Shown piece after piece: positions 7,551 through 18,984 of a stretch of 64,000 nucleotides of DNA (the first letter of the stretch is position 1; each line of letters begins with the position of its first letter). This DNA comes from Flavobacteriaceae bacterium (lineage in GTDB: Bacteria > Bacteroidota > Bacteroidia > Flavobacteriales > Flavobacteriaceae). A program made the translations under genes and the position numbers. The DNA lies in the NCBI GenBank assembly GCA_021739635.1, contig JAIPBH010000008.1:124001-188000 (forward strand). Reading direction: 5' to 3'. A model generated the notes under the pieces. The model had not been told where the DNA came from and ran no database searches. It worked only from the letters and a program-made list of their open reading frames with translations.

Positions 7551-8825
7551 TTAGCTAGGAAACTTGGCTCTAATCTTATCTAAACACAAATTATGAATGC
7601 TCCCAACATGTGTGTGTTTTTTTGAAGTATCTGGCACATAAGTGCCGTCTTGCACTTGACCCCCAATTTTTTGATACGCTTCCCTAAACGTTTGTCCTTC
7701 AACAACCAATGTGTTAATATTATCGACCGTAAATAAGTATTTATACAAATCGCTATGTACATTAATATCGTTTACAATGATTTGTTGAATGGAATAATTG
7801 AAAATATCAAGAATATCTTTCACCTCCTCAAATGCAGCTATCATATTTTCTTTTAACAATTGAAAATCTCTATGGTAACCACTTGGCAAATTATTGGTTA
7901 TTAAAATCATTTCAGTTTGCAAAGACTGAATTTTGTTACATTTTCCACGTATTAATTCAAACACATCTGGATTTTTTTTATGGGGCATAATGCTACTGCC
8001 TGTGGTTAGTTCATCTGGAAAGGAAATAAAACCAAAATTCTGACTCATATACAAACAGACATCCATAGCAAAACGCGCCATGGTGTTACATAAACCTCCT
8101 AACGCGGCCGCAATAGTACGCTCGTTTTTACCACGACTCATTTGAGCTGCTACCACATTGTATTTTAAAGTTTCAAAACCCATTTCTTTAGTGGTAAACT
8201 CCCTATCAATTGGAAACGAACTACCATAACCAGCTGCAGAACCCAGAGGATTTTGATCGACTGTTTTGATAGCTGCGTTCAATAAATACACATCATCAAT
8301 CATTAATTCGGCATACGCAGAAAACCATAACCCAAAAGATGATGGCATGGCGACTTGTAAATGCGTATAACCAGGTAGCACCTTGTTTTTATGTGTTTCG
8401 GCTAAGTCTAAAAGTGTATTAAAAAACACAAGCGTTTTTTCTTTTACTAAACCTAAATTTTCTTTGTAATATAAGTGAAGTGCTACTAAAACTTGATCGT
8501 TTCTAGAACGTGCAGTATGTATTTTTTTTCCAACATCACCTAAACTTTTAGTCAGTTCAAACTCTATTTTAGAATGTACATCTTCAAATTGTTGGTCTAT
8601 GGCAAACGTACCATTTTCAATTTGAGTTTCTATTTTTTTTAAGCCTCCTAATAATTCTATTAACTCATTAGTAGAAATTATTCCTACTTTTTGAAGCATT
8701 TTAGCATGAGCTCTAGATGCAATAACATCGTATTTTGCTATGTGAATATCAATTTCTCTATCGTTGCCAACAGTAAATTGCTCTATTTTTTTATCGATTG
8801 ATATGCCTTTGTCCCAGAGTTTCAT
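7551..8825 (-). CDS. argH: argininosuccinate lyase
   Basis: GSSIMPHKKNPD signature, HTARSRNDQV, arg operon context. Confidence 0.95.
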   Translation of the reverse strand: MKLWDKGISIDKKIEQFTVGNDREIDIHIAKYDVIASRAHAKMLQKVGIISTNELIELLGGLKKIETQIENGTFAIDQQFEDVHSKIEFELTKSLGDVGKKIHTARSRNDQVLVALHLYYKENLGLVKEKTLVFFNTLLDLAETHKNKVLPGYTHLQVAMPSSFGLWFSAYAELMIDDVYLLNAAIKTVDQNPLGSAAGYGSSFPIDREFTTKEMGFETLKYNVVAAQMSRGKNERTIAAALGGLCNTMARFAMDVCLYMSQNFGFISFPDELTTGSSIMPHKKNPDVFELIRGKCNKIQSLQTEMILITNNLPSGYHRDFQLLKENMIAAFEEVKDILDIFNYSIQQIIVNDINVHSDLYKYLFTVDNINTLVVEGQTFREAYQKIGGQVQDGTYVPDTSKKHTHVGSIHNLCLDKIRAKFPS

Positions 8826-8833
8826 TTCTTAAT

Positions 8834-8865
8834 GTTGATTTGTTGATTTGTTGATTTGTTGATTT
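8834..8865. repeat. tandem repeat, 4 exact copies of 8-bp GTTGATTT (AAATCAAC on coding strand)
   Basis: Direct reading; fills most of the argE-argH intergenic gap. Confidence 0.95.
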
Positions 8866-8867
8866 GT

Positions 8868-9935
8868 TTAAACGATTACCCGATTCAACAATTCAACATA
8901 AATTTTAATTCCTTCTTCTATTTCATGCAAATGAATATATTCATCGGCTGAATGTGAGCGTGGACTATCGCCTGGCCCTAATTTTAAAGATTTACATGAT
9001 AACCATGCTTGATCTGATAATGTTGGCGAGCCATAAGTTGTTCTACCCAACCCAATACCTGCTTGTACCAACGGATGTTCCACAGGAATGGATGATGAAT
9101 TTAAATTCAAACTACGTGGTGTAATGCTGGAACATGGTGCATTTTTTTGTAAAAAATCAGCAATTTCCTTATTTGTATATTTATCATTAACACGCACATC
9201 TATAACTAAATCTACTTCGGCTGGCACTACATTATGTTGTTTTCCGGCATTGATTTGAGTAACGGTTAATTTCACATCGCCCAAAGTTTCAGAACTTTTT
9301 TCAAACTTTAAATCCTTAAACCATTGCAAGGTTTCTGTAAGTTTATAAATAGGATTATCATCATTCGGATGTGCTGCATGACTTGCCGTTCCTTTTACTT
9401 TCGCATCAAAAACCACCAAACCTTTTTCTGCAACTGCTAAATTCATCAATGTGGGTTCTCCAACAATGGCGACATCAATGTTCGGTATGATTTTTAACAT
9501 GCTGTTCAATCCGTTAGGCCCACTACTTTCTTCTTCCGCAGAAGCAACCATAATCAAATTATATTTTAAATCTTTATGATTGTAAAAATAAGTAAATGTG
9601 GCAATTAAAGACACCAAGCAACCACCAGCATCATTACTACCCAAACCGTATAATTTCCCGTTTTCAACAATGGCTTTAAATGGGTCTTTGGTGTAGGCTG
9701 AATTAGGTTTTACTGTATCATGATGCGAGTTGAGTAACATATTTGGTTTGCTATCATCAAAATATTTATTAACTGCCCAAACGTTGTTTTGGTTTCGTTT
9801 ATAATCTATTTTGTTACGATTAAACCAAGCTTCTATATGCGACGCTGTAGCATCTTCTTCCGAAGAAAAAGAAGTAGTTTCTATCAATTGTTTTAAAAGT
9901 GCTATTGCATCGTTTGTTAAGTCTTGTAACGCCAT
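8868..9935 (-). CDS. argE: M20 family N-acyl-ornithine deacylase (ArgE-like)
   Basis: LLNSHHDTVKP, GSNDAGGCLVS, ASAEEESSG, arg operon context. Confidence 0.88.
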   Translation of the reverse strand: MALQDLTNDAIALLKQLIETTSFSSEEDATASHIEAWFNRNKIDYKRNQNNVWAVNKYFDDSKPNMLLNSHHDTVKPNSAYTKDPFKAIVENGKLYGLGSNDAGGCLVSLIATFTYFYNHKDLKYNLIMVASAEEESSGPNGLNSMLKIIPNIDVAIVGEPTLMNLAVAEKGLVVFDAKVKGTASHAAHPNDDNPIYKLTETLQWFKDLKFEKSSETLGDVKLTVTQINAGKQHNVVPAEVDLVIDVRVNDKYTNKEIADFLQKNAPCSSITPRSLNLNSSSIPVEHPLVQAGIGLGRTTYGSPTLSDQAWLSCKSLKLGPGDSPRSHSADEYIHLHEIEEGIKIYVELLNRVIV

Positions 9936-9936
9936 A

Positions 9937-10719
9937 TTATAATGTTATTCTTGTAAAATTATCATTTTCTTGGGTTAACATATTCGTATTTCCCATATTT
10001 ATGGTTTGTACGCCGTGTTTTAAAGCATCAAAACAGTTTTCCAACTTTGGAAGCATCCCATCAGCTATAATACCTTGTTCTAATAATTGGTTATATGTAT
10101 TAGAATTGATATGTTTTATAACGGAGTTTTTATCATTGATATCTTTTAACACGCCATTTAATTCAAAACAATAATAAATCGAGGTTTCATAAATAGGGCT
10201 CATACCAATTGCTAATTGTGAGGTGACGGTATCAGCATTGGTATTTAATAATTGTCCGTTACCATCATGTGTTATTGCACAAAAAACAGGTGTGAAATTG
10301 GCATTAATTAATTTATTAATAGACTGGTACGCAACTTTTTTAACATCGCCAACAAATCCGAAATCTACGTCTTTAACAGGTCTTTTTTTAGATAAGATAC
10401 TATTGATATCTGCTCCTGTTAAACCAATAGCATCAATGTTTAAAGCTTGTAATTTAGCCACGATGTTCTTGTTTACCAAACCTCCATAGACCATCGTAAT
10501 AACTTCTAACGTTTCTGCATCGGTAATCCGTCTGCCATTCACCATGTTAGATTGAATTCCTAATTTTAAGGCAATACTTGTGGCACGTTTTCCTCCTCCG
10601 TGCACTAAAATTTTATATCCTTCTAATTTAGAAAATAGTTTAAGAAAATCATTTAAAGACGTTTCGTCTTCAATGATATTTCCTCCTATTTTTACTATGG
10701 ATAGTTTTTCTTTAGGCAT
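9937..10719 (-). CDS. argB: acetylglutamate kinase
   Basis: VKIGGNII, LVHGGGKRAT, GLTGADIN. Confidence 0.93.
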   Translation of the reverse strand: MPKEKLSIVKIGGNIIEDETSLNDFLKLFSKLEGYKILVHGGGKRATSIALKLGIQSNMVNGRRITDAETLEVITMVYGGLVNKNIVAKLQALNIDAIGLTGADINSILSKKRPVKDVDFGFVGDVKKVAYQSINKLINANFTPVFCAITHDGNGQLLNTNADTVTSQLAIGMSPIYETSIYYCFELNGVLKDINDKNSVIKHINSNTYNQLLEQGIIADGMLPKLENCFDALKHGVQTINMGNTNMLTQENDNFTRITL

Positions 10720-11650
10720 TTTCTAATAATTTTTTAAGCACCAATTGAGCTGCATAAGTTCTATTATTGGCTTGTTGGATAACAATAGAACTCTCGCTAT
10801 CCAAAACAGCATCTTCTACAATCACATTTCGTCTTACAGGTAAACAATGCATAAATTTAGCATTACCCAATTTAGCTTTGGTAATCATCCAATTAGGGTC
10901 TGTGTTCAATATCTTTCCGTAATCTTCATACGAACTCCAGTTTTTCACATAAACAAAATCAGCCTCTTTAAATGCTTCATTTTGATTATGGAGTATCGGC
11001 GTATTAGCTGTTATTTTCGGATTTAAATCATAACCTTCTGGGTTGGTGATTACAAACTCCACATCCATTTTTTGCATGACTTGCACAAAGCTATTGGCAA
11101 CAGCATGCGGCAAGGCTTTTACATGAGGTGCCCAACTTAGCACAACTTTAGGCCTTGCTCTTTTTGAATATTCTGAAATTGTAATGGCATCTGTCAAACC
11201 TTGAAGTGGATGCCCAGTGGCACTTTCCATATTAACAATAGGTACAGAGGCATATTTTACAAAAGCATTTATTACTTGCTCACTTTCATCTTTGGCCTTA
11301 TTCGTCAACGTTGGAAAAGCCCTTACTGCAATAATATCACAATATTGAGACACAACAGCGGCGGCTTCTTTAATATGTTCAGCTGTGTTGCCATTCATAA
11401 TGGTACCATCTCCAAACTCAATGCCCCAAGCATCGCCAGACACATTCATCACAATCGGGTCCATACCTAAATTCAAGGCCGCTTTTTGGGTGCTTAATCG
11501 TGTGCGCAAACTGGAATTGAAAAACAATAACCCTATGGTTTTATGTTTTCCTAAAGTGATGTGTTTAAGCGGATTTGATTTTAAAGCTTTCGCTTCCTCA
11601 ATCCAAGAATGGATATTATCTATATCATTTATGGAGATGTAATTTTTCAT
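10712..11650 (-). CDS. argF': N-acyl-ornithine carbamoyltransferase (acetyl- or succinyl-ornithine transcarbamylase)
   Basis: FFNSSLRTRLSTQKAALNLGM, MHCLPVRRNVIV; Bacteroidetes-type transcarbamylase in arg operon. Confidence 0.9.
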   Translation of the reverse strand: MKNYISINDIDNIHSWIEEAKALKSNPLKHITLGKHKTIGLLFFNSSLRTRLSTQKAALNLGMDPIVMNVSGDAWGIEFGDGTIMNGNTAEHIKEAAAVVSQYCDIIAVRAFPTLTNKAKDESEQVINAFVKYASVPIVNMESATGHPLQGLTDAITISEYSKRARPKVVLSWAPHVKALPHAVANSFVQVMQKMDVEFVITNPEGYDLNPKITANTPILHNQNEAFKEADFVYVKNWSSYEDYGKILNTDPNWMITKAKLGNAKFMHCLPVRRNVIVEDAVLDSESSIVIQQANNRTYAAQLVLKKLLENA

Positions 11651-11658
11651 TTTTACTT

Positions 11659-12423
11659 TTATTTTATTTTTGTATACGGCACTTTGTTTTGAAAAGCATT
11701 GACGATGAAATTATCTTCCAACCCATTAACAATCCAAGTTTCTATATTGGCTTTTTTTGCTACCGAAGCCGCTTCAATTTTGGATGCCATACCTCCGCTG
11801 CCGTGTGATGATTTTGAACTGACTACTTGACTTGCCAATTCCTCAAAATTCTCAACCAATTCGATGGTTTTTGGAACACCATTTTCCATAGATTCTTTTG
11901 TGTAAATACCATGGGTATTGGTTGCAATAATAAACAAATCTGCTTCTAAAAGTGATGCGGTTAAAGCTCCTAATTTATCGTTATCACCAAACTTAATTTC
12001 ATCGGTTGCTACCGTATCATTTTCGTTAATGATGGGAATGTAATTATTACTAATCAAGACATTAATGGTGTTTACGATATTGATCCTGCTTTGTTCTCTT
12101 TCAAAATCGGAATAAGACAATAAACATTGTGAACTTAACAAACCATATTCTCTAAAAATTTCTTGATAAATACGAATTAAATGTGGTTGCCCAATAGATG
12201 CCAACGCCTGTTTTACATTAATATCTTTGCCTTTACTTTCCAGTTTTACAAACTGCTTAGCCACTGCTATAGCACCTGAACTTACGATAACAAACTCATA
12301 AGTATCTTGAAGTTGGGCTATTTGATTCGCCACATCTTCAATCTTACCCCTAGATATATTATTGGTTTCTTTGGTTAAAGTATTCGAACCTATCTTAAGT
12401 AATATTCTTTTCTTTTTCTGCAT
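11659..12423 (-). CDS. proB: glutamate 5-kinase
   Basis: LLKIGSNTLT, VSSGAIAVAKQ, FGDNDKLGALTASLLEAD. Confidence 0.93.
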   Translation of the reverse strand: MQKKKRILLKIGSNTLTKETNNISRGKIEDVANQIAQLQDTYEFVIVSSGAIAVAKQFVKLESKGKDINVKQALASIGQPHLIRIYQEIFREYGLLSSQCLLSYSDFEREQSRINIVNTINVLISNNYIPIINENDTVATDEIKFGDNDKLGALTASLLEADLFIIATNTHGIYTKESMENGVPKTIELVENFEELASQVVSSKSSHGSGGMASKIEAASVAKKANIETWIVNGLEDNFIVNAFQNKVPYTKIK

Positions 12424-13619
12424 TATCTTATTTGTCCGTTACCATGAACATACCATTTATTGGTTACTAAATGTTGTAAACCTATCGGACCACGTTGATG
12501 TAATTTATCGGTACTAATCGCCAACTCTCCACCCAGACCTAATTGAAAACCATCTGTAAATCTGGTAGATGCATTGTGATATACTACAGCATTATCTACA
12601 TTTTCCATAAATTTTTTCGCCTCTGCTTCATTTTTTGTTATGATGGAAGATGAATGTCCGCCAGAATAGTTATTAATCATGGTAACTGCATCTTGAGTGG
12701 AACCAATTTCCCCAATAACAATTTTATAATCTAGAAATTCTTGATGCCAAATATCATGTGATTTAATCGCTTCAACATGCTCATATTTTGAAAGAGTTTC
12801 ATTTCCCAAAATTTGAACTTTAAATCCTTTTAATTTTGAAATAAGTTCTTTAACAAAGGTATCTTTATTAGGTAAATTTTTATCAATCAACACTTTATCC
12901 AAAGCATTACACGCTGAAATTTTAGCTGTTTTTGCATTTATAATTATACTTAAAGCTATATCTAAATCTGCCTCTTTGTGCACATACACAAAATTATTCC
13001 CACGACCACTTATAATTACGGGGCATGTTGCATGTTGTTTCACAAAAGCTATCAATTTTTCTCCACCACGAGGCACAATTAAATCGACTTTTTGTGTTGG
13101 TTTTTCCAAAAATGTTTGCGTTTCAGTTCTATTGAATTGTAAATATTCCACCCAATCGGTTGAAGCACCACATGCTTTCAAAGCTTGATGCCATAACTCC
13201 ACAATTTTTAAGTTAGAATTCAAAGATTCTTTTCCTCCTTTCAATAATATTTTATTTCCCGATTTAAAAGCGATGCCAGCAGCTTCAACAGTAACATCTG
13301 GACGTGATTCATAAATAATTAAAACCGTTCCAAAAGAAGCTGTTTTATTATACACTTGCATCCCATTATCATGCTTGAAAACAAAACGCTCGACTCCCAC
13401 AGGATCTTCTTGAGAAGCTAAATTTTTCACAGATGCAATCATGCCATCTACTTTTAAATCGTCTACTTTCAATCGGTCATACATAGAAATATCCTCGCCA
13501 GTATAAGCTTCAACATCTGCTTTATTAATCTCAATAATTGCAACTCTTTCTTTTTCTAAAAGTACTGCCATTTTAAGCAATACGGCGTTTCTTGTTTCTA
13601 TGTTTAATAATGTATTCAT
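12423..13619 (-). CDS. proA: glutamate-5-semialdehyde dehydrogenase
   Basis: YESRPDVTVEAAG, LIVPRGGEKLI, DNAVVYHNASTRFTDG. Confidence 0.95.
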   Translation of the reverse strand: MNTLLNIETRNAVLLKMAVLLEKERVAIIEINKADVEAYTGEDISMYDRLKVDDLKVDGMIASVKNLASQEDPVGVERFVFKHDNGMQVYNKTASFGTVLIIYESRPDVTVEAAGIAFKSGNKILLKGGKESLNSNLKIVELWHQALKACGASTDWVEYLQFNRTETQTFLEKPTQKVDLIVPRGGEKLIAFVKQHATCPVIISGRGNNFVYVHKEADLDIALSIIINAKTAKISACNALDKVLIDKNLPNKDTFVKELISKLKGFKVQILGNETLSKYEHVEAIKSHDIWHQEFLDYKIVIGEIGSTQDAVTMINNYSGGHSSSIITKNEAEAKKFMENVDNAVVYHNASTRFTDGFQLGLGGELAISTDKLHQRGPIGLQHLVTNKWYVHGNGQIR

Positions 13620-13673
13620 TTTTGTTTATAATTTTTGAAGTTTTAGGCTTCTTAATTTTCAACAAACTTTGTT

Positions 13674-14834
13674 TTAACCTTGAACTTCTAGTTCTTTATT
13701 TTCTATGTTAATCAACGCTTTTTTAAGGGCTTCAAAGAATTCATCAACATGATTTTCAGTAATGGTTAATGGTGGTAAAATTCTAATCAATTTTTTATTT
13801 GAAGCTGCACCTGTGAAAATATGATACTCATAAATAAGCTTTTTTCTTAATTCACCTACTTCAAAGTCGAATTCTAAACCAAGCATTAAGCCTCTTCCTT
13901 TAATAATTTTTATCTGCGGAATTGTTTTAGCTATAGAAATAAAGTATTCTGAAATATTGTTGACATTATCCATTAAATTTTCTTCTTCAATCGTATTTAA
14001 AACGGCTAATCCAGCAGCACATGCCAAATGATTTCCGCCAAAAGTAGTTCCTAACATGCCATACTTGGCTTCAATACTTGGGTGAATCAAAATCCCCCCA
14101 ATTGGGAAACCATTTCCCATACCCTTTGCAATGGAAATCACATCTGGCGTTACATTATAATGCTGGAAAGCAAAGAATTTTCCTGAACGTCCGTAACCAG
14201 ATTGCACCTCATCTGCAATAAAAAAGGTATTATTAGCTTTACAAAGAGTATCTACTTGTTCAAAAAAAGCTTTAGTTCCTTGATCTAAACCTCCAACGCC
14301 TTGAATAAATTCCACAATTACGGCACAAACGTCTCCTTTTTCTAATTCATTTTTTACTCCTTCTACATCATTTAAGGCTAAAAAAGTTACTTTATGTTGC
14401 GCATTAATAGGCGCTACTATAGACTTACTATCAGTTGCTGCAACAGCTGCTGATGTACGACCATGAAATGAATTATTGAAAGCTATAACTCTTGAATTAC
14501 CAGTTTTAAATGAAGCTAATTTTAGTGCGTTTTCGTTTGCCTCAGCACCAGAATTACATAAAAATAACTCACACCCTTTACACCCTGAAAGTGCTTCAAG
14601 TTTGTCAGCTAAGGCTACTTGCAATGGATTTTTAATCGCATTGGAATAAAATCCTAGTTTAGAAACCTGATTGCTAACAGCTTTCACATAATTAGGATGC
14701 GAATGCCCAATGGAAATTACGGCATGACCTCCGTAAAGGTCTAAATATTCAACTCCTGTTTCATCGTAAACATACATATCTTTTCCAGATACTGGAGTGA
14801 TATTATATAATGGGTAAACGTCAAATAATGGCAT
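13674..14834 (-). CDS. argD: acetylornithine/N-succinylornithine aminotransferase
   Basis: Class III aminotransferase motifs FFIADEVQSGYGRSG, SIAKGMGNGFPIG; start taken at internal Met (MPLFDVYPLYN) because the longer ORF overlaps proC. Confidence 0.93.
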   Translation of the reverse strand: MPLFDVYPLYNITPVSGKDMYVYDETGVEYLDLYGGHAVISIGHSHPNYVKAVSNQVSKLGFYSNAIKNPLQVALADKLEALSGCKGCELFLCNSGAEANENALKLASFKTGNSRVIAFNNSFHGRTSAAVAATDSKSIVAPINAQHKVTFLALNDVEGVKNELEKGDVCAVIVEFIQGVGGLDQGTKAFFEQVDTLCKANNTFFIADEVQSGYGRSGKFFAFQHYNVTPDVISIAKGMGNGFPIGGILIHPSIEAKYGMLGTTFGGNHLACAAGLAVLNTIEEENLMDNVNNISEYFISIAKTIPQIKIIKGRGLMLGLEFDFEVGELRKKLIYEYHIFTGAASNKKLIRILPPLTITENHVDEFFEALKKALINIENKELEVQG

Positions 14835-14835
14835 T

Positions 14836-15630
14836 CTAATTCTTTTTAATTTGGTTAATTTTTTCAAAGGATGCAACAATACCTTTAATTAAAGATGAAC
14901 TTAATCCTTGATGCTCCATTTCGTTTAAACCTTCAATGGTACAACCTCTTGGTGTTGTTACACGATCTATTTCTTGTTCTGGATGGCTTCCAGATTCAAT
15001 TAATAAGCTAGCGGCTCCAAAACAGGTTTGCATAGCTAATTCTTGTGCCTCACGAGCTTCAAACCCCAATTGAATAGCTCCTTGAGTGGTAGCTCGAATT
15101 AAACGCATCCAAAATGCAATACCACTGGCACAAATAACAGTTGCTGCTTGAATTTGCTCTTCGGGAATTTCTAGTGAACGCCCAAGGCGATTAAAAATTT
15201 CTAATGCAAGTTTTACTTTTTCTTTTCCTTTTTCATTAGATGCTATACAAGTCATAGATTGCCCTACTGAAATAGCCGTATTAGGCATGGCTCTTATAAT
15301 GTATTTAGCTTCTCCAACTACAGACTCAATTCTTGCTATGGAATAACCTGTAATGGTTGAAATAATTATATGATTTTTAGTTAAAAATGGTTCTAATTTT
15401 TTTAAAATATTTTCAAGTTGTGATGGCTGAACAGCAAAAATTAAAATATCTGAATTTTTTACGGCTAAAGCATTATCAGAAGTTAAAGTGACTCCTTTTG
15501 AACCTTCAAATTCCTTGAGATGTTCAATATTCCTTTTAGTTAAATACAATGTTGAAATAGCATCATGCGCTATTAGTCCTTTTGCTATGGATTTTCCTAA
15601 ATTCCCTGCTCCTATAATGGCTATTTTCAT
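14836..15630 (-). CDS. proC: pyrroline-5-carboxylate reductase
   Basis: IIGAGNLGKSIAKGL, IRAMPNTA, VTTPRGCTIEGL. Confidence 0.95.
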   Translation of the reverse strand: MKIAIIGAGNLGKSIAKGLIAHDAISTLYLTKRNIEHLKEFEGSKGVTLTSDNALAVKNSDILIFAVQPSQLENILKKLEPFLTKNHIIISTITGYSIARIESVVGEAKYIIRAMPNTAISVGQSMTCIASNEKGKEKVKLALEIFNRLGRSLEIPEEQIQAATVICASGIAFWMRLIRATTQGAIQLGFEAREAQELAMQTCFGAASLLIESGSHPEQEIDRVTTPRGCTIEGLNEMEHQGLSSSLIKGIVASFEKINQIKKN

Positions 15631-15702
15631 TTTTTTACATTTTATTGTTCTTAAAAGGAAAAATGTGTTAGCATAAATTATGCTCAGTGCATAATTTCCT
15701 AA

Positions 15703-16680
15703 TTAAAAATAATTGGCTTTTAATTGCAATCCTTCAGTTTCTTCAAACCCAAACATCAAATTCATATTTTGGATGGCTTGTCCAGATGCCCCTTTTAATA
15801 AATTATCAATAATACTTGTAATAAGTAATTTGTTATTATGTTTATGCAAATGAATCAAGCATTTATTGGTGTTTACTACTTGTTTTAAATGCAAGTCTTC
15901 ATCAGAAATAAAAGTAAATCTTGAATCTTGATAAAAGGCTTTATATAAATGTTTTACTTCTTCTAAAGTGCCTTCAAAACTGGTATAAACAGTTGCAAAA
16001 ATGCCTCTGGAAAAATTACCTCTGTTTGGCATAAAAACGATTTCTGAAGAAAAACTTTCTTGTAATTGTTTAACGGATTGATTGATTTCGCCTAAATGCT
16101 GATGTGTAAAAGGTTTATAATATGAGAAATTGTTATCTCTCCAAGTAAAATGAGTAGTTTCAGACAACGAAGTTCCTGCTCCAGTTGAACCGGTAACTGC
16201 ATTTACATGCACATCACTATTTATTAAATTGTTCTCTGCCAATGGTAATATTGCTAATTGTATGGCTGTTGCAAAACAGCCTGGGTTTGCTACATAATCA
16301 GCTTTTTTAATGGCTTCTTTTTGAAGTTCAGGCAATCCATAAACAAAGGTTTTATTATTAAAAACTTTATCTTTTTCTAGTCTGAAATCATTTCCTAAGT
16401 CAATAATTTTTGTAGTATCTGAAAAAGTATTTGCTTTTAAAAACTTAACTGAATTTCCGTGCCCTAAACACAAAAACAATACATCGACATTTGGATTGAT
16501 AACATCAGTGAATTTTAAATCTAAACTACCTTCTAAGTCTTGATGCACTTTACAAATTTTATTACCAGCATTTGATGTGCTGTAAACAAAATTGATTTCT
16601 GCTTCACGATGAAACATCAATAGTCTAATCAATTCTCCTGCCGTATAACCTGCTCCTCCAATAATGCCGACTTGTATCAT
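15703..16680 (-). CDS. argC: N-acetyl-gamma-glutamyl-phosphate reductase
   Basis: GIIGGAGYTAGELIRLL, NPGCFATAIQLA, VTGSTGAG. Confidence 0.95.
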   Translation of the reverse strand: MIQVGIIGGAGYTAGELIRLLMFHREAEINFVYSTSNAGNKICKVHQDLEGSLDLKFTDVINPNVDVLFLCLGHGNSVKFLKANTFSDTTKIIDLGNDFRLEKDKVFNNKTFVYGLPELQKEAIKKADYVANPGCFATAIQLAILPLAENNLINSDVHVNAVTGSTGAGTSLSETTHFTWRDNNFSYYKPFTHQHLGEINQSVKQLQESFSSEIVFMPNRGNFSRGIFATVYTSFEGTLEEVKHLYKAFYQDSRFTFISDEDLHLKQVVNTNKCLIHLHKHNNKLLITSIIDNLLKGASGQAIQNMNLMFGFEETEGLQLKANYF

Positions 16681-16684
16681 GCCT

Positions 16685-17869
16685 TTATGAGTTTACTTGT
16701 TGATAGATTTTATTTTGATTTCCAAAGATTTTTATAAATCCTTTGGCTTCATCAGGAGTCCAACCTTTACTTTCTTCGCCATAACTTCCAAACTTAGCAT
16801 TCATTAAATCATGTTTAGAAACAATACCATCTAAAGTGAAATGATATGGTTTTAAACTTACTGTTACATCACCACTAACCTTGTCTTGACTACTTTGTAA
16901 AAAAGCTTCAATGTTTCGCATCACTGGATCTAAATATTGTCCTTCGTGTAAATGCATTCCATAGAAACTTGCTAAATATTCTTTATGTTGCAATTGCCAT
17001 TTAGTAAGCGTGTGTTTCTCTAATAAATGATGTGCTTTTATGGTAATTAAAGCTGCTGGTGCTTCAAAACCAACACGTCCTTTAATACCAACAATAGTAT
17101 CTCCTACATGAATATCTCTACCAATAGCATAGGCTGATGCCAAATTATTTAAGGCTTCAATATTTACTTCAGGATCATTTTTAACACCATTTACGGCTAC
17201 CAACTCTCCTTTTTCAAAAGTTAACTTTACCTTTTCTTCGTCACTGTGTTTTAGTTGAGATGGATAGGCTTCATTTGGTAATGGTTTTTCAGAAGTTAAA
17301 GTTTCTTGACCTCCAACACTAGTTCCCCAAAGCCCTTTGTTTATAGAATACTTGGCTTTCTCCCAAGACATATCGATACCATTGGCTTTTAAATATTCTA
17401 TTTCTTCTTGTCTTGAAAGTTTTTCATCTCTAATAGGCGTTACGATTTGGATTTCTGGAGCCAAAGTTTGAAAAATCATATCAAATCTAACTTGGTCATT
17501 TCCTGCACCTGTACTTCCATGAGCAATATATTCTGCTCCAATACTTTTAGCATATTCTACTATTTCAATAGCTTGAATAATTCGTTCAGCACTTACTGAT
17601 AATGGATACGTATTATTTTTTAAAACATTACCAAAAACTAAATACTTAATCACTTTTTGGTAAAAAGAATTAACAGCATCAATATTTTTATAAGTTGAAA
17701 CACCCATTTTATAGGCATTAGCTTCAATGTTATCAATTTCAGTTTGCGTAAATCCGCCTGTATTGACGCTTACCGCGTGCACATCAAATTTTTTAGACAA
17801 ACTTACGGCACAATAAGAGGTATCTAATCCGCCACTATAGGCAATTACTAATTTTTTCATGGTACTCAT
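16685..17869 (-). CDS. argG: argininosuccinate synthase
   Basis: VIAYSGGLDTSYC PP-loop, AHGSTGAGNDQVRFD. Confidence 0.95.
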   Translation of the reverse strand: MSTMKKLVIAYSGGLDTSYCAVSLSKKFDVHAVSVNTGGFTQTEIDNIEANAYKMGVSTYKNIDAVNSFYQKVIKYLVFGNVLKNNTYPLSVSAERIIQAIEIVEYAKSIGAEYIAHGSTGAGNDQVRFDMIFQTLAPEIQIVTPIRDEKLSRQEEIEYLKANGIDMSWEKAKYSINKGLWGTSVGGQETLTSEKPLPNEAYPSQLKHSDEEKVKLTFEKGELVAVNGVKNDPEVNIEALNNLASAYAIGRDIHVGDTIVGIKGRVGFEAPAALITIKAHHLLEKHTLTKWQLQHKEYLASFYGMHLHEGQYLDPVMRNIEAFLQSSQDKVSGDVTVSLKPYHFTLDGIVSKHDLMNAKFGSYGEESKGWTPDEAKGFIKIFGNQNKIYQQVNS

Positions 17870-18483
17870 TTCTTATCTTTTTTTAAAAACATGGTTTCTT
17901 TGATATGCTTTAATCTTTGAAACACTTTTGTTTTTACTTGTTTTTTTTCGTTAATGTCTTTTGCTGCAGGGTCATATAACATCCCGGTACACAAACACAT
18001 TTTTCTATTGGTACGTGTTAAAACGTCATAATTTTTACAAGTTTGGCATCCATCCCAAAAGGTTGGATCATCGGTTAACTCTGAAAACGGTACTGGTTTA
18101 TAACCTAATTCGGTATTCATTTTCATAACCGCTAAACCTGTGGTGATACTAAACACTTTAGCTTCTGGGAATTTATTTCTTGAATGTTGAAATACTTTAT
18201 GCTTAATTTTTTTTGCTAAACCGGCATTTCTGTAATCTGGATGCACAATCAATCCGGAGTTAGCAACAAACTTACCATGGCCCCATTTTTCGATGTAACA
18301 AAAACCAGCAAATTTATCGCCATCTAAAGCGATAACAGCGTTACCATTTTCCATTTTTGTGGTAATATATTCCGGGGTACGTCTGGCTATACCTGTGCCC
18401 CTAACTGCAGCAGATTCTGCAATGGTTTCGCAAATAATTTCTGCGTATTTACTATGAGATTTATCAGCAATTACAATGTCCAT
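17866..18483 (-). CDS. GNAT family N-acetyltransferase, first gene of arg operon
   Basis: GLIVHPDYRNAGLAKKIKHKVF acetyl-CoA motif; C-terminal DGCQTCKNYDVLTRTNRKMCLCTG. Confidence 0.85.
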   Translation of the reverse strand: MDIVIADKSHSKYAEIICETIAESAAVRGTGIARRTPEYITTKMENGNAVIALDGDKFAGFCYIEKWGHGKFVANSGLIVHPDYRNAGLAKKIKHKVFQHSRNKFPEAKVFSITTGLAVMKMNTELGYKPVPFSELTDDPTFWDGCQTCKNYDVLTRTNRKMCLCTGMLYDPAAKDINEKKQVKTKVFQRLKHIKETMFLKKDKK

Positions 18484-18544
18484 TTATTGTATTGATTTTC
18501 AAATTAAAAATTAAAAATTAATGCTTTTTCTTTAATGATGAACT

Positions 18545-18610
18545 GGACTCACCTAGTTCTTTATGAGACTTACAACCCTTACGGGCGACGTGGAAAAATA
18601 TGGCACATAA
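18545..18610 (-). promoter_or_regulatory. candidate structured leader element of arg operon (GC-rich island; CCC-GUAA-GGG hairpin; mini-ORF MCHIFPRRP)
   Basis: GC-rich island in AT-rich leader; hairpin CCCGTAAGGG at 18576-18585; GAACT...AGTTC hairpin; mini-ORF ATG at 18608 to TAA at 18579. Confidence 0.5.
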
Positions 18611-18715
18611 AATAGTGGTTAATTGACCTACTAATTATATTTTGATATGCTATGAATGAAACTTTGTTCAATGTGATAAAAATTAAAATGACGTTTTGGT
18701 TTTGGTAACTAAAGA

Positions 18716-18790
18716 CTAAAAGCGACGGCGATTACTACGCGCGCGCAAACCGGGTGATGAAGGACGTATTTTATTTTTTAAAGTATTCAT
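18716..18790 (-). CDS. candidate arginine-rich leader peptide, MNTLKNKIRPSSPGLRARSNRRRF (24 aa)
   Basis: Manual translation: 6 Arg in 24 codons, all CGT/CGC, in the leader of an 11-gene arg operon; ends NRRRF-stop. Confidence 0.65.
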   Translation of the reverse strand: MNTLKNKIRPSSPGLRARSNRRRF

Positions 18791-18984
18791 ATAGTAAAAT
18801 TATAATTTTATTTTTTACAACCTGTAAAAACACGTTGCTTTTTTAAAAAAATTATGAATACTCACACTAAAACTCATATTTATTATGAATAATGTAGTTA
18901 TTTATTGCTGAATTTATCATATAAAAAAAGGAAATCATTTATTGAACACCTTTTTTACTATTGATATGTTGTTAAATGGCTCAT

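Follow-up and report, generated by a model that had tools for sequence, protein, structure and literature searches.

Tandem arginine-rich leader ORFs and two conserved hairpins precede the arginine operon of Flavobacteriaceae and suggest ribosome-read control

The window analysed here, a 64,000-nt stretch of DNA from a Flavobacteriaceae genome, carries on its minus strand an operon of arginine and proline biosynthesis genes, preceded by a leader with two short open reading frames (ORF1 and ORF2), a long-range stem and two hairpins (Table 1). All 11 genes of the operon are co-directional, and the gene scans assign argF' as an N-acyl-ornithine transcarbamylase and argE as an argE-like deacylase; argH was identified by reading its sequence, the other arg and pro genes by scan. 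An initial annotation had placed an arginine-rich leader peptide about 230 nt before the first gene of this operon, and the sequence reads as it claimed: ORF1 encodes 24 amino acids, 6 of them Arg, written with three CGT and three CGC codons and including a terminal Arg-Arg-Arg run, and 232 nt separate its end from the GNAT start at 18483. It had also held that the GC-rich tract of this ORF is not background composition. The tract is locally GC-rich (0.48–0.50 versus 0.13–0.25 around it in 60-nt windows), but this is partly explained by the RNA pairing described below. On average, a shuffled window contains 0.6 ORFs that have six or more Arg, and 0.2 that also have an Arg-Arg-Arg run. Hence, ORF1 is not very improbable when the window is taken alone, and we take it as real because it is conserved.

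Table 1 Features of the arg/pro operon and its leader in the window.
Feature	Position	Strand	Description
-7 promoter box	18795..18802	minus	TAATTTTA, a TAnnTTTG-type box of Bacteroidetes; 4 nt separate it from the ORF1 start codon
ORF1	18716..18790	minus	Arg leader peptide MNTLKNKIRPSSPGLRARSNRRRF and stop; probably near-leaderless
ORF1 codons			ATG AAT ACT TTA AAA AAT AAA ATA CGT CCT TCA TCA CCC GGT TTG CGC GCG CGT AGT AAT CGC CGT CGC TTT TAG
5' arm, long-range stem	18764..18781	minus	ORF1 codons 4-9, TTAAAAAATAAAATACGT; partner 18677-18694
3' arm, long-range stem	18677..18694	minus	ACGTCATTTTAATTTTTA, directly before the ORF2 start
ORF2	18579..18671	minus	Second Arg leader peptide LNKVSFIAYQNIISRSINHYFMCHIFPRRP and stop (...FPRRP-stop)
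Hairpin A	18574..18587	minus	CGCCC-GUAA-GGGUU (elsewhere GGGUG)
Hairpin B	18540..18559	minus	GAACU-A-GG-UGAGU-CC-AGUUC: bulged A between the outer stem and a 2-bp inner stem; pentaloop UGNGU
GNAT	17866..18483	minus	First operon gene; NAGS-like by position, weak N-acetyltransferase match
argG, argC, proC, argD, proA, proB, argF', argB, argE, argH	7551..17869	minus	Rest of the 11-gene operon

A peptide search with ORF1 across 201 genomes of the family gave matches in many genera. We collected 76 arg leaders, comprising the DNA upstream of the GNAT orthologue (found in 63 of 101 family genomes) together with further loci, and in 46 of these sampled Flavobacteriaceae leaders an ORF1 ending in an Arg cluster lies about 300 nt before GNAT (for example MKTLKNKIRCTIPGLPVRSRRR, MNSKKNKIRTFSPGLRLRNRRR and MLKTQNKNERPSSLPARRRRR, each followed by a stop). 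A separate scan of named genomes found an ORF1-type ORF in 76 of 80 loci, with Yeosuana, Algibacter, Flavivirga, Hyunsoonleella, Polaribacter and Nonlabens among the genera. Conservation of the Arg cluster and of GNAT-argG synteny, which had been proposed as the check on the first reading, is thus borne out in both samples.

The conserved part of ORF1 is its Arg content. Arg makes up 22% of ORF1 codons, and 85% of these are CGT or CGC, a share that falls to 30% in neighbouring genes. In a set of 16 window genes, Arg stands at 2.6% and AGA is its commonest codon. In the 46 genomes taken together, the last 12 codons of ORF1 include 193 Arg codons in frame. Dinucleotide shuffles give 89 ± 8, and the other two frames of the same stretch give 16 and 51; the excess over shuffles is z = 13. 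Outside Arg the peptide is poorly conserved and varies in length and motifs, with a pN/pS of 0.69 over codons 10–22 indicating weak protein-level constraint, and the N-terminus MxxLKNKIR is kept in one clade. The only copy of ORF1 in its own genome stands before GNAT. On this comparative sequence evidence, ORF1 is an Arg-codon-rich leader ORF whose Arg cluster and GNAT-argG synteny are kept across many genera.

The promoter of the leader lies very close to ORF1. The -7 box of the window is of the TAnnTTTG type described for Bacteroidetes promoters in PMC9723704, and a TAnnTTT[GA] box ends 4–7 nt before the ORF1 start in 39 of the 46 genomes (at 4–5 nt in 37), compared with 12 of 282 control ATGs that have such a box at 3–7 nt. 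No conserved -33 TTG was established upstream of ORF1. Given a -7 box 4–5 nt before the ATG and the layout of Bacteroidetes promoters, the transcript should begin at or next to the ATG, and ORF1 is probably leaderless or near-leaderless. The start codon itself can vary: seven Algibacter-like loci (L007, L040, L207, L209, L213, L222 and L235) begin ORF1 with GTG rather than ATG, with the spacing to the -7 box unchanged.

The initial annotation described a single leader peptide. ORF1 is present, but it is one of two, and the second ORF and two conserved hairpins had been missed. ORF2 starts with TTG in the window and with GTG or ATG in relatives; an Arg-rich ORF2 is found in 67 of the 76 leaders, where it mostly ends 82–98 nt before GNAT. 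Endings among relatives include ...MRRIFPRRP, ...VRPFSRRRRP and ...VRRTPRRP, and the stop that follows at the same place is TAA, TAG or TGA depending on the genome. Arg accounts for 33% of its last 12 codons, with CGT or CGC in 92% of these cases, and the in-frame Arg excess reaches z = 19, or z = 13 when the RRP triplet is left out. With a pN/pS of 0.83, protein-level constraint on ORF2 is weak as well; a weak coding signal in the substitution pattern of both ORFs is what is expected if the Arg codons alone matter. Many leaders without ORF1 have ORF2 directly behind the promoter, and a TACATTTG-type box lies 6–8 nt before the ORF2 ATG in 11 of 25 genomes that lack ORF1. Because ORF2 is more widespread and stands alone behind the promoter in many genomes, we regard it as the family-wide core of the leader and ORF1 as an addition in a large subgroup.

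The window itself departs from its relatives in ORF2. At 18608..18600 on the minus strand (ORF2 codons 22–24), the Arg-Arg ATGCGTCGT of relatives is replaced by ATGTGCCAT, reading Met-Cys-His. The upstream Arg pair is thereby lost in the window and its nearest relatives (MCHI versus MRRI), which points to reduced sensing by the ORF2 of the window. In this clade ORF2 appears to be partly decayed, and ORF1 may carry more of the sensing.

The two ORFs are connected by the long-range stem. Both arms are near-invariant in the close clade, where an A/C-variable base of the 3' arm falls at a bulge, and in distant genera differing arms still pair through compensatory changes, as AAATAAAATTGT does with ACAATTTTATTT and ATATAGAGT with ACTCTATAT. 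Pairing between the two arms of one genome is better than pairing across genomes, with 0 of 5000 permutations as good. The conserved LKNKIR at the N-terminus of ORF1 is explained in part by this pairing with the ORF2 start region, which keeps its nucleotides fixed. When a modelled ribosome footprint blocks ORF1 at its first Arg codon, the ORF2 start region opens in 34 of 41 leaders, and the mean unpaired probability of that region rises from 0.38 to 0.63; a ribosome modelled at the last ORF1 Arg codon or at the stop does not open it. Since any block on the 5' arm would open the ORF2 start, the modelled step is plausible but not proven. The modelled accessibility of the GNAT start region is unchanged by the position of a ribosome on ORF2.

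At the other end of ORF2, coding sequence and RNA structure overlap. The 5' arm of hairpin A consists of the last Arg codon and the Pro codon of ORF2, with the ORF2 stop in the loop. A ribosome standing on the final Arg codons of ORF2, or on its stop, would cover this hairpin. In two genomes the hairpin covaries to CGCAC/GUGCG, which turns Pro into Thr and leaves the Arg codons unchanged, so the Pro serves the hairpin and not Pro sensing. Sensing of Pro through the RRP ending is disfavoured for the same reason.

Hairpin B is the most conserved feature of the leader and lies at a near-fixed distance downstream of hairpin A. Its outer stem has many compensatory changes and its two inner pairs covary in a few genomes, and among 67 leaders the loop is UGAGU in 44, UGUGU in 14 and UGCGU in 5. 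In a covariation count over 48 sequences, 94.5% of cells are paired. Double changes number 31, where shuffles give 9.5 ± 2.5, and the covariation score is 0.252, compared with 0.143 ± 0.010 for shuffles; sliding the structures as a control lowers the paired share to 23–65%. A covariance model of both hairpins gives one match with E < 0.01 per genome, always at the arg locus, in 11 of 12 relatives, and the twelfth (G111) has a diverged copy. Pattern and covariance searches for hairpin B place it at the arg locus only, given that other pattern matches lack the stem and other model matches are weak. Outside the Flavobacteriaceae the search for the combined element gave nothing credible, the two weak matches in other families lying inside unrelated ORFs, and Rfam covariance models run against the leader returned chance matches only, all far below the gathering score.

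The minimum free energy fold of a single leader is no better than that of shuffles (z = -0.22). Single-sequence folding is hence uninformative here, and comparative data are needed for the structure of the leader RNA. Inspection of the alignments by eye revealed no conserved pairing between the arms of A and B; a single short alternative, UCGCC with GGUGA, was all that stood out. Hairpin B also contains AGGUGA-G-UCC, which we take to be roughly complementary to the 16S 3' end with one bulged G. We rejected an anti-Shine-Dalgarno role, given that the would-be pairing base varies (A, U or C) and the would-be bulged base is almost invariant.

The regulatory setting was examined through the arginine repressor and through the his operon. 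The ArgR domain PF02863 was found in 0 of 24 family genomes searched, including that of the window, in a search whose controls were positive in Bacteroides, E. coli and others; its absence fits leader-based control of the arg operon. Ribosome-mediated attenuation is apparently at home in Flavobacteriaceae. The genome of the window (L151, C15) encodes a his leader peptide, MNFIKLHHHHFQICTQAK, about 134 nt upstream of hisG with the terminator ACCCGTTTGAGACCATCAAACGGGTTTTTT, and a His-rich leader with an intrinsic terminator precedes hisG in 10 of 10 family genomes examined. In contrast, when the identical scan was applied to the 76 arg leaders, no more than 9 gave a terminator-like element. Most of these are weak and consist of hairpin A with a poor U stretch, and no U-run consistently follows hairpin B. 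This difference indicates that the arg leader is not of the classical attenuator type. Hence, the earlier proposal of a candidate arginine attenuator keeps its conserved Arg leader ORF and its agreement with the absence of ArgR, but not the classical terminator that the his leaders have.

We propose that the arg/pro operon has a 5' leader that is probably an Arg-specific, ribosome-read switch made of tandem leader peptides, whose output is something other than a classical intrinsic terminator. That the leader senses Arg is well supported by comparison across genomes; how it produces its output, and what hairpin B does, are inferred. The sensor would most likely be a ribosome waiting at Arg codons. 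Transcription would begin at the ORF1 ATG or a little upstream of it. With charged tRNA-Arg in good supply, ribosomes would traverse ORF1, and the long-range stem would close and cover the start of ORF2. Under Arg shortage, a ribosome would wait at codon 9 of ORF1, the first Arg codon and inside the 5' arm, so that the arm is covered and the ORF2 start stays open; a ribosome then stalled on the Arg run that ends ORF2 would block hairpin A, and the operon would be on. In genomes without ORF1, the same task would fall to ORF2 alone, directly behind the promoter. Candidate relays from hairpins A and B are Rho, RNA decay, a bound protein and RNA polymerase. A more specific form of this proposal, which we offer tentatively and would not bet on at even odds, is that A and B together are a new RNA element of flavobacterial arg operons that converts ribosome position on tandem leaders for the same amino acid into terminator-free control of the operon. 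Its binding partner may be a protein, RNA polymerase or a ligand.

A Rho-dependent output would give the hairpins a smaller part: the position of the ribosome on ORF2 would expose or hide a C-rich stretch (in the region of the Arg and Pro codons and the stop) for Rho, with A and B pacing or marking the transcript. In its favour, the end of ORF2 is C-rich by eye, and most arg leaders are without an intrinsic terminator. The Salmonella orf34 leader moreover combines Arg codons in pairs with Rho and alternative folding of the RNA (PMC6386406). However, Rho sites have no strict consensus, hairpin B has a conserved loop and a conserved bulge that are left unexplained, and we consider this version unlikely.

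It is less probable still, and in our judgement improbable, that the RNA element came first, with A and B acting in the manner of a riboswitch or a protein-binding site and the ORFs arising as by-products of GC-rich arms. The conservation, covariation and nearly invariant loop of hairpin B are what such an element would have, but the in-frame Arg content far exceeds that of shuffles even outside the hairpin triplet. Start, Arg cluster and stop also share one frame in 46 genomes for ORF1 and in 67 for ORF2, and the ORF1 of the window ends 129 nt before hairpin A.

Classical transcription attenuation of the trp/his type with an intrinsic terminator is very improbable. The family's his operon belongs to that type and a few genomes have a U-rich stretch after hairpin A, but the terminator counts given above and the lack of a consistent U-run after hairpin B argue against it. 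We give next to no credence to ORF1 being a small Arg-rich functional protein (for example, a nucleic-acid-binding one) or a remnant gene, given that the N-terminus kept in one clade is set by nucleotide pairing, little else but Arg is conserved, lengths and motifs vary, and no second copy occurs in its own genome.

The tandem leader-peptide switch that we favour has parts in common with several known systems. Like his and trp attenuators, including the local hisG leader, it has a short ORF with a run of codons for the regulated amino acid just before a biosynthetic operon, but it differs in the absence of an intrinsic terminator, the tandem ORFs for the same amino acid, the near-leaderless ORF1 and hairpin B. 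In E. coli, consecutive Arg codons in the leader ORF speFL pause the ribosome. In the Salmonella orf34/speF leader, consecutive Arg codons likewise pause the ribosome and the downstream RNA refolds (PMC6386406). By their descriptions, both share with the arg leader a short upstream ORF that contains consecutive Arg codons; orf34/speF, however, has a single ORF and concerns polyamine synthesis in enterobacteria, whereas the arg leader precedes GNAT-argG and not an ornithine decarboxylase gene. The Arg-sensing upstream ORF rbfL of S. aureus controls the translation start of the next reading frame (PMC13009471), but uses the rare codons AGA and AGG, occludes the ribosome-binding site directly, targets a biofilm regulator and represses at low Arg. 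Tandem short ORFs in one leader are known from Salmonella mgtM/mgtP, which sense ATP and proline (PMC3641672), and from ermBL/ermBL2 of ermB (PMC8274638). The two ORFs of the arg leader are both Arg-rich, unlike mgtM/mgtP with their differing signals, and judged from sequence both are conserved.

The initial annotation named no precedent, and in the open-licence literature that we searched, no Bacteroidetes arg biosynthetic operon is described as having an Arg leader peptide. Leader-peptide control in flavobacteria is nevertheless not a new idea, as attenuation by leader peptides before amino-acid operons has been suggested in general terms for Flavobacterium psychrophilum (PMC9723704). The structured 5' elements named there include pheA and hisG; arg, tandem ORFs and hairpin B do not appear in its main-text passages on such elements.

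The Flavobacteriaceae tested keep the arg operon, and with ArgR in 0 of the 24 genomes searched, the leader is a concrete candidate for their control of arginine synthesis. If the proposal is true, it extends leader-peptide control to arginine biosynthesis and provides a case in which one amino acid has two leader ORFs in tandem. Pairing and codon sensing share bases in this leader, the Pro codon being set by hairpin A and the N-terminus of ORF1 by the long-range stem. Small ORFs in flavobacterial leaders can also escape notice.

Some members of the family have other forms of the leader. In three Aestuariibaculum loci (L199, L230 and L236) and in G062 (L044), the usual type of ORF1 is absent and a single ORF ends in PARRFRRPL(R/G)V and a stop; a simple pattern misses hairpin B in some of them, and the leader has a reduced form. 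Three species of genus g129 (L156, L157 and L158) are without ORF1, ORF2 and hairpins A and B. At about -332 from GNAT, behind a TACTTTTG box, they have in common another short ORF, MNK.SLHITSLSRT...SPEVR, and apparently represent another leader type for the arg operon.
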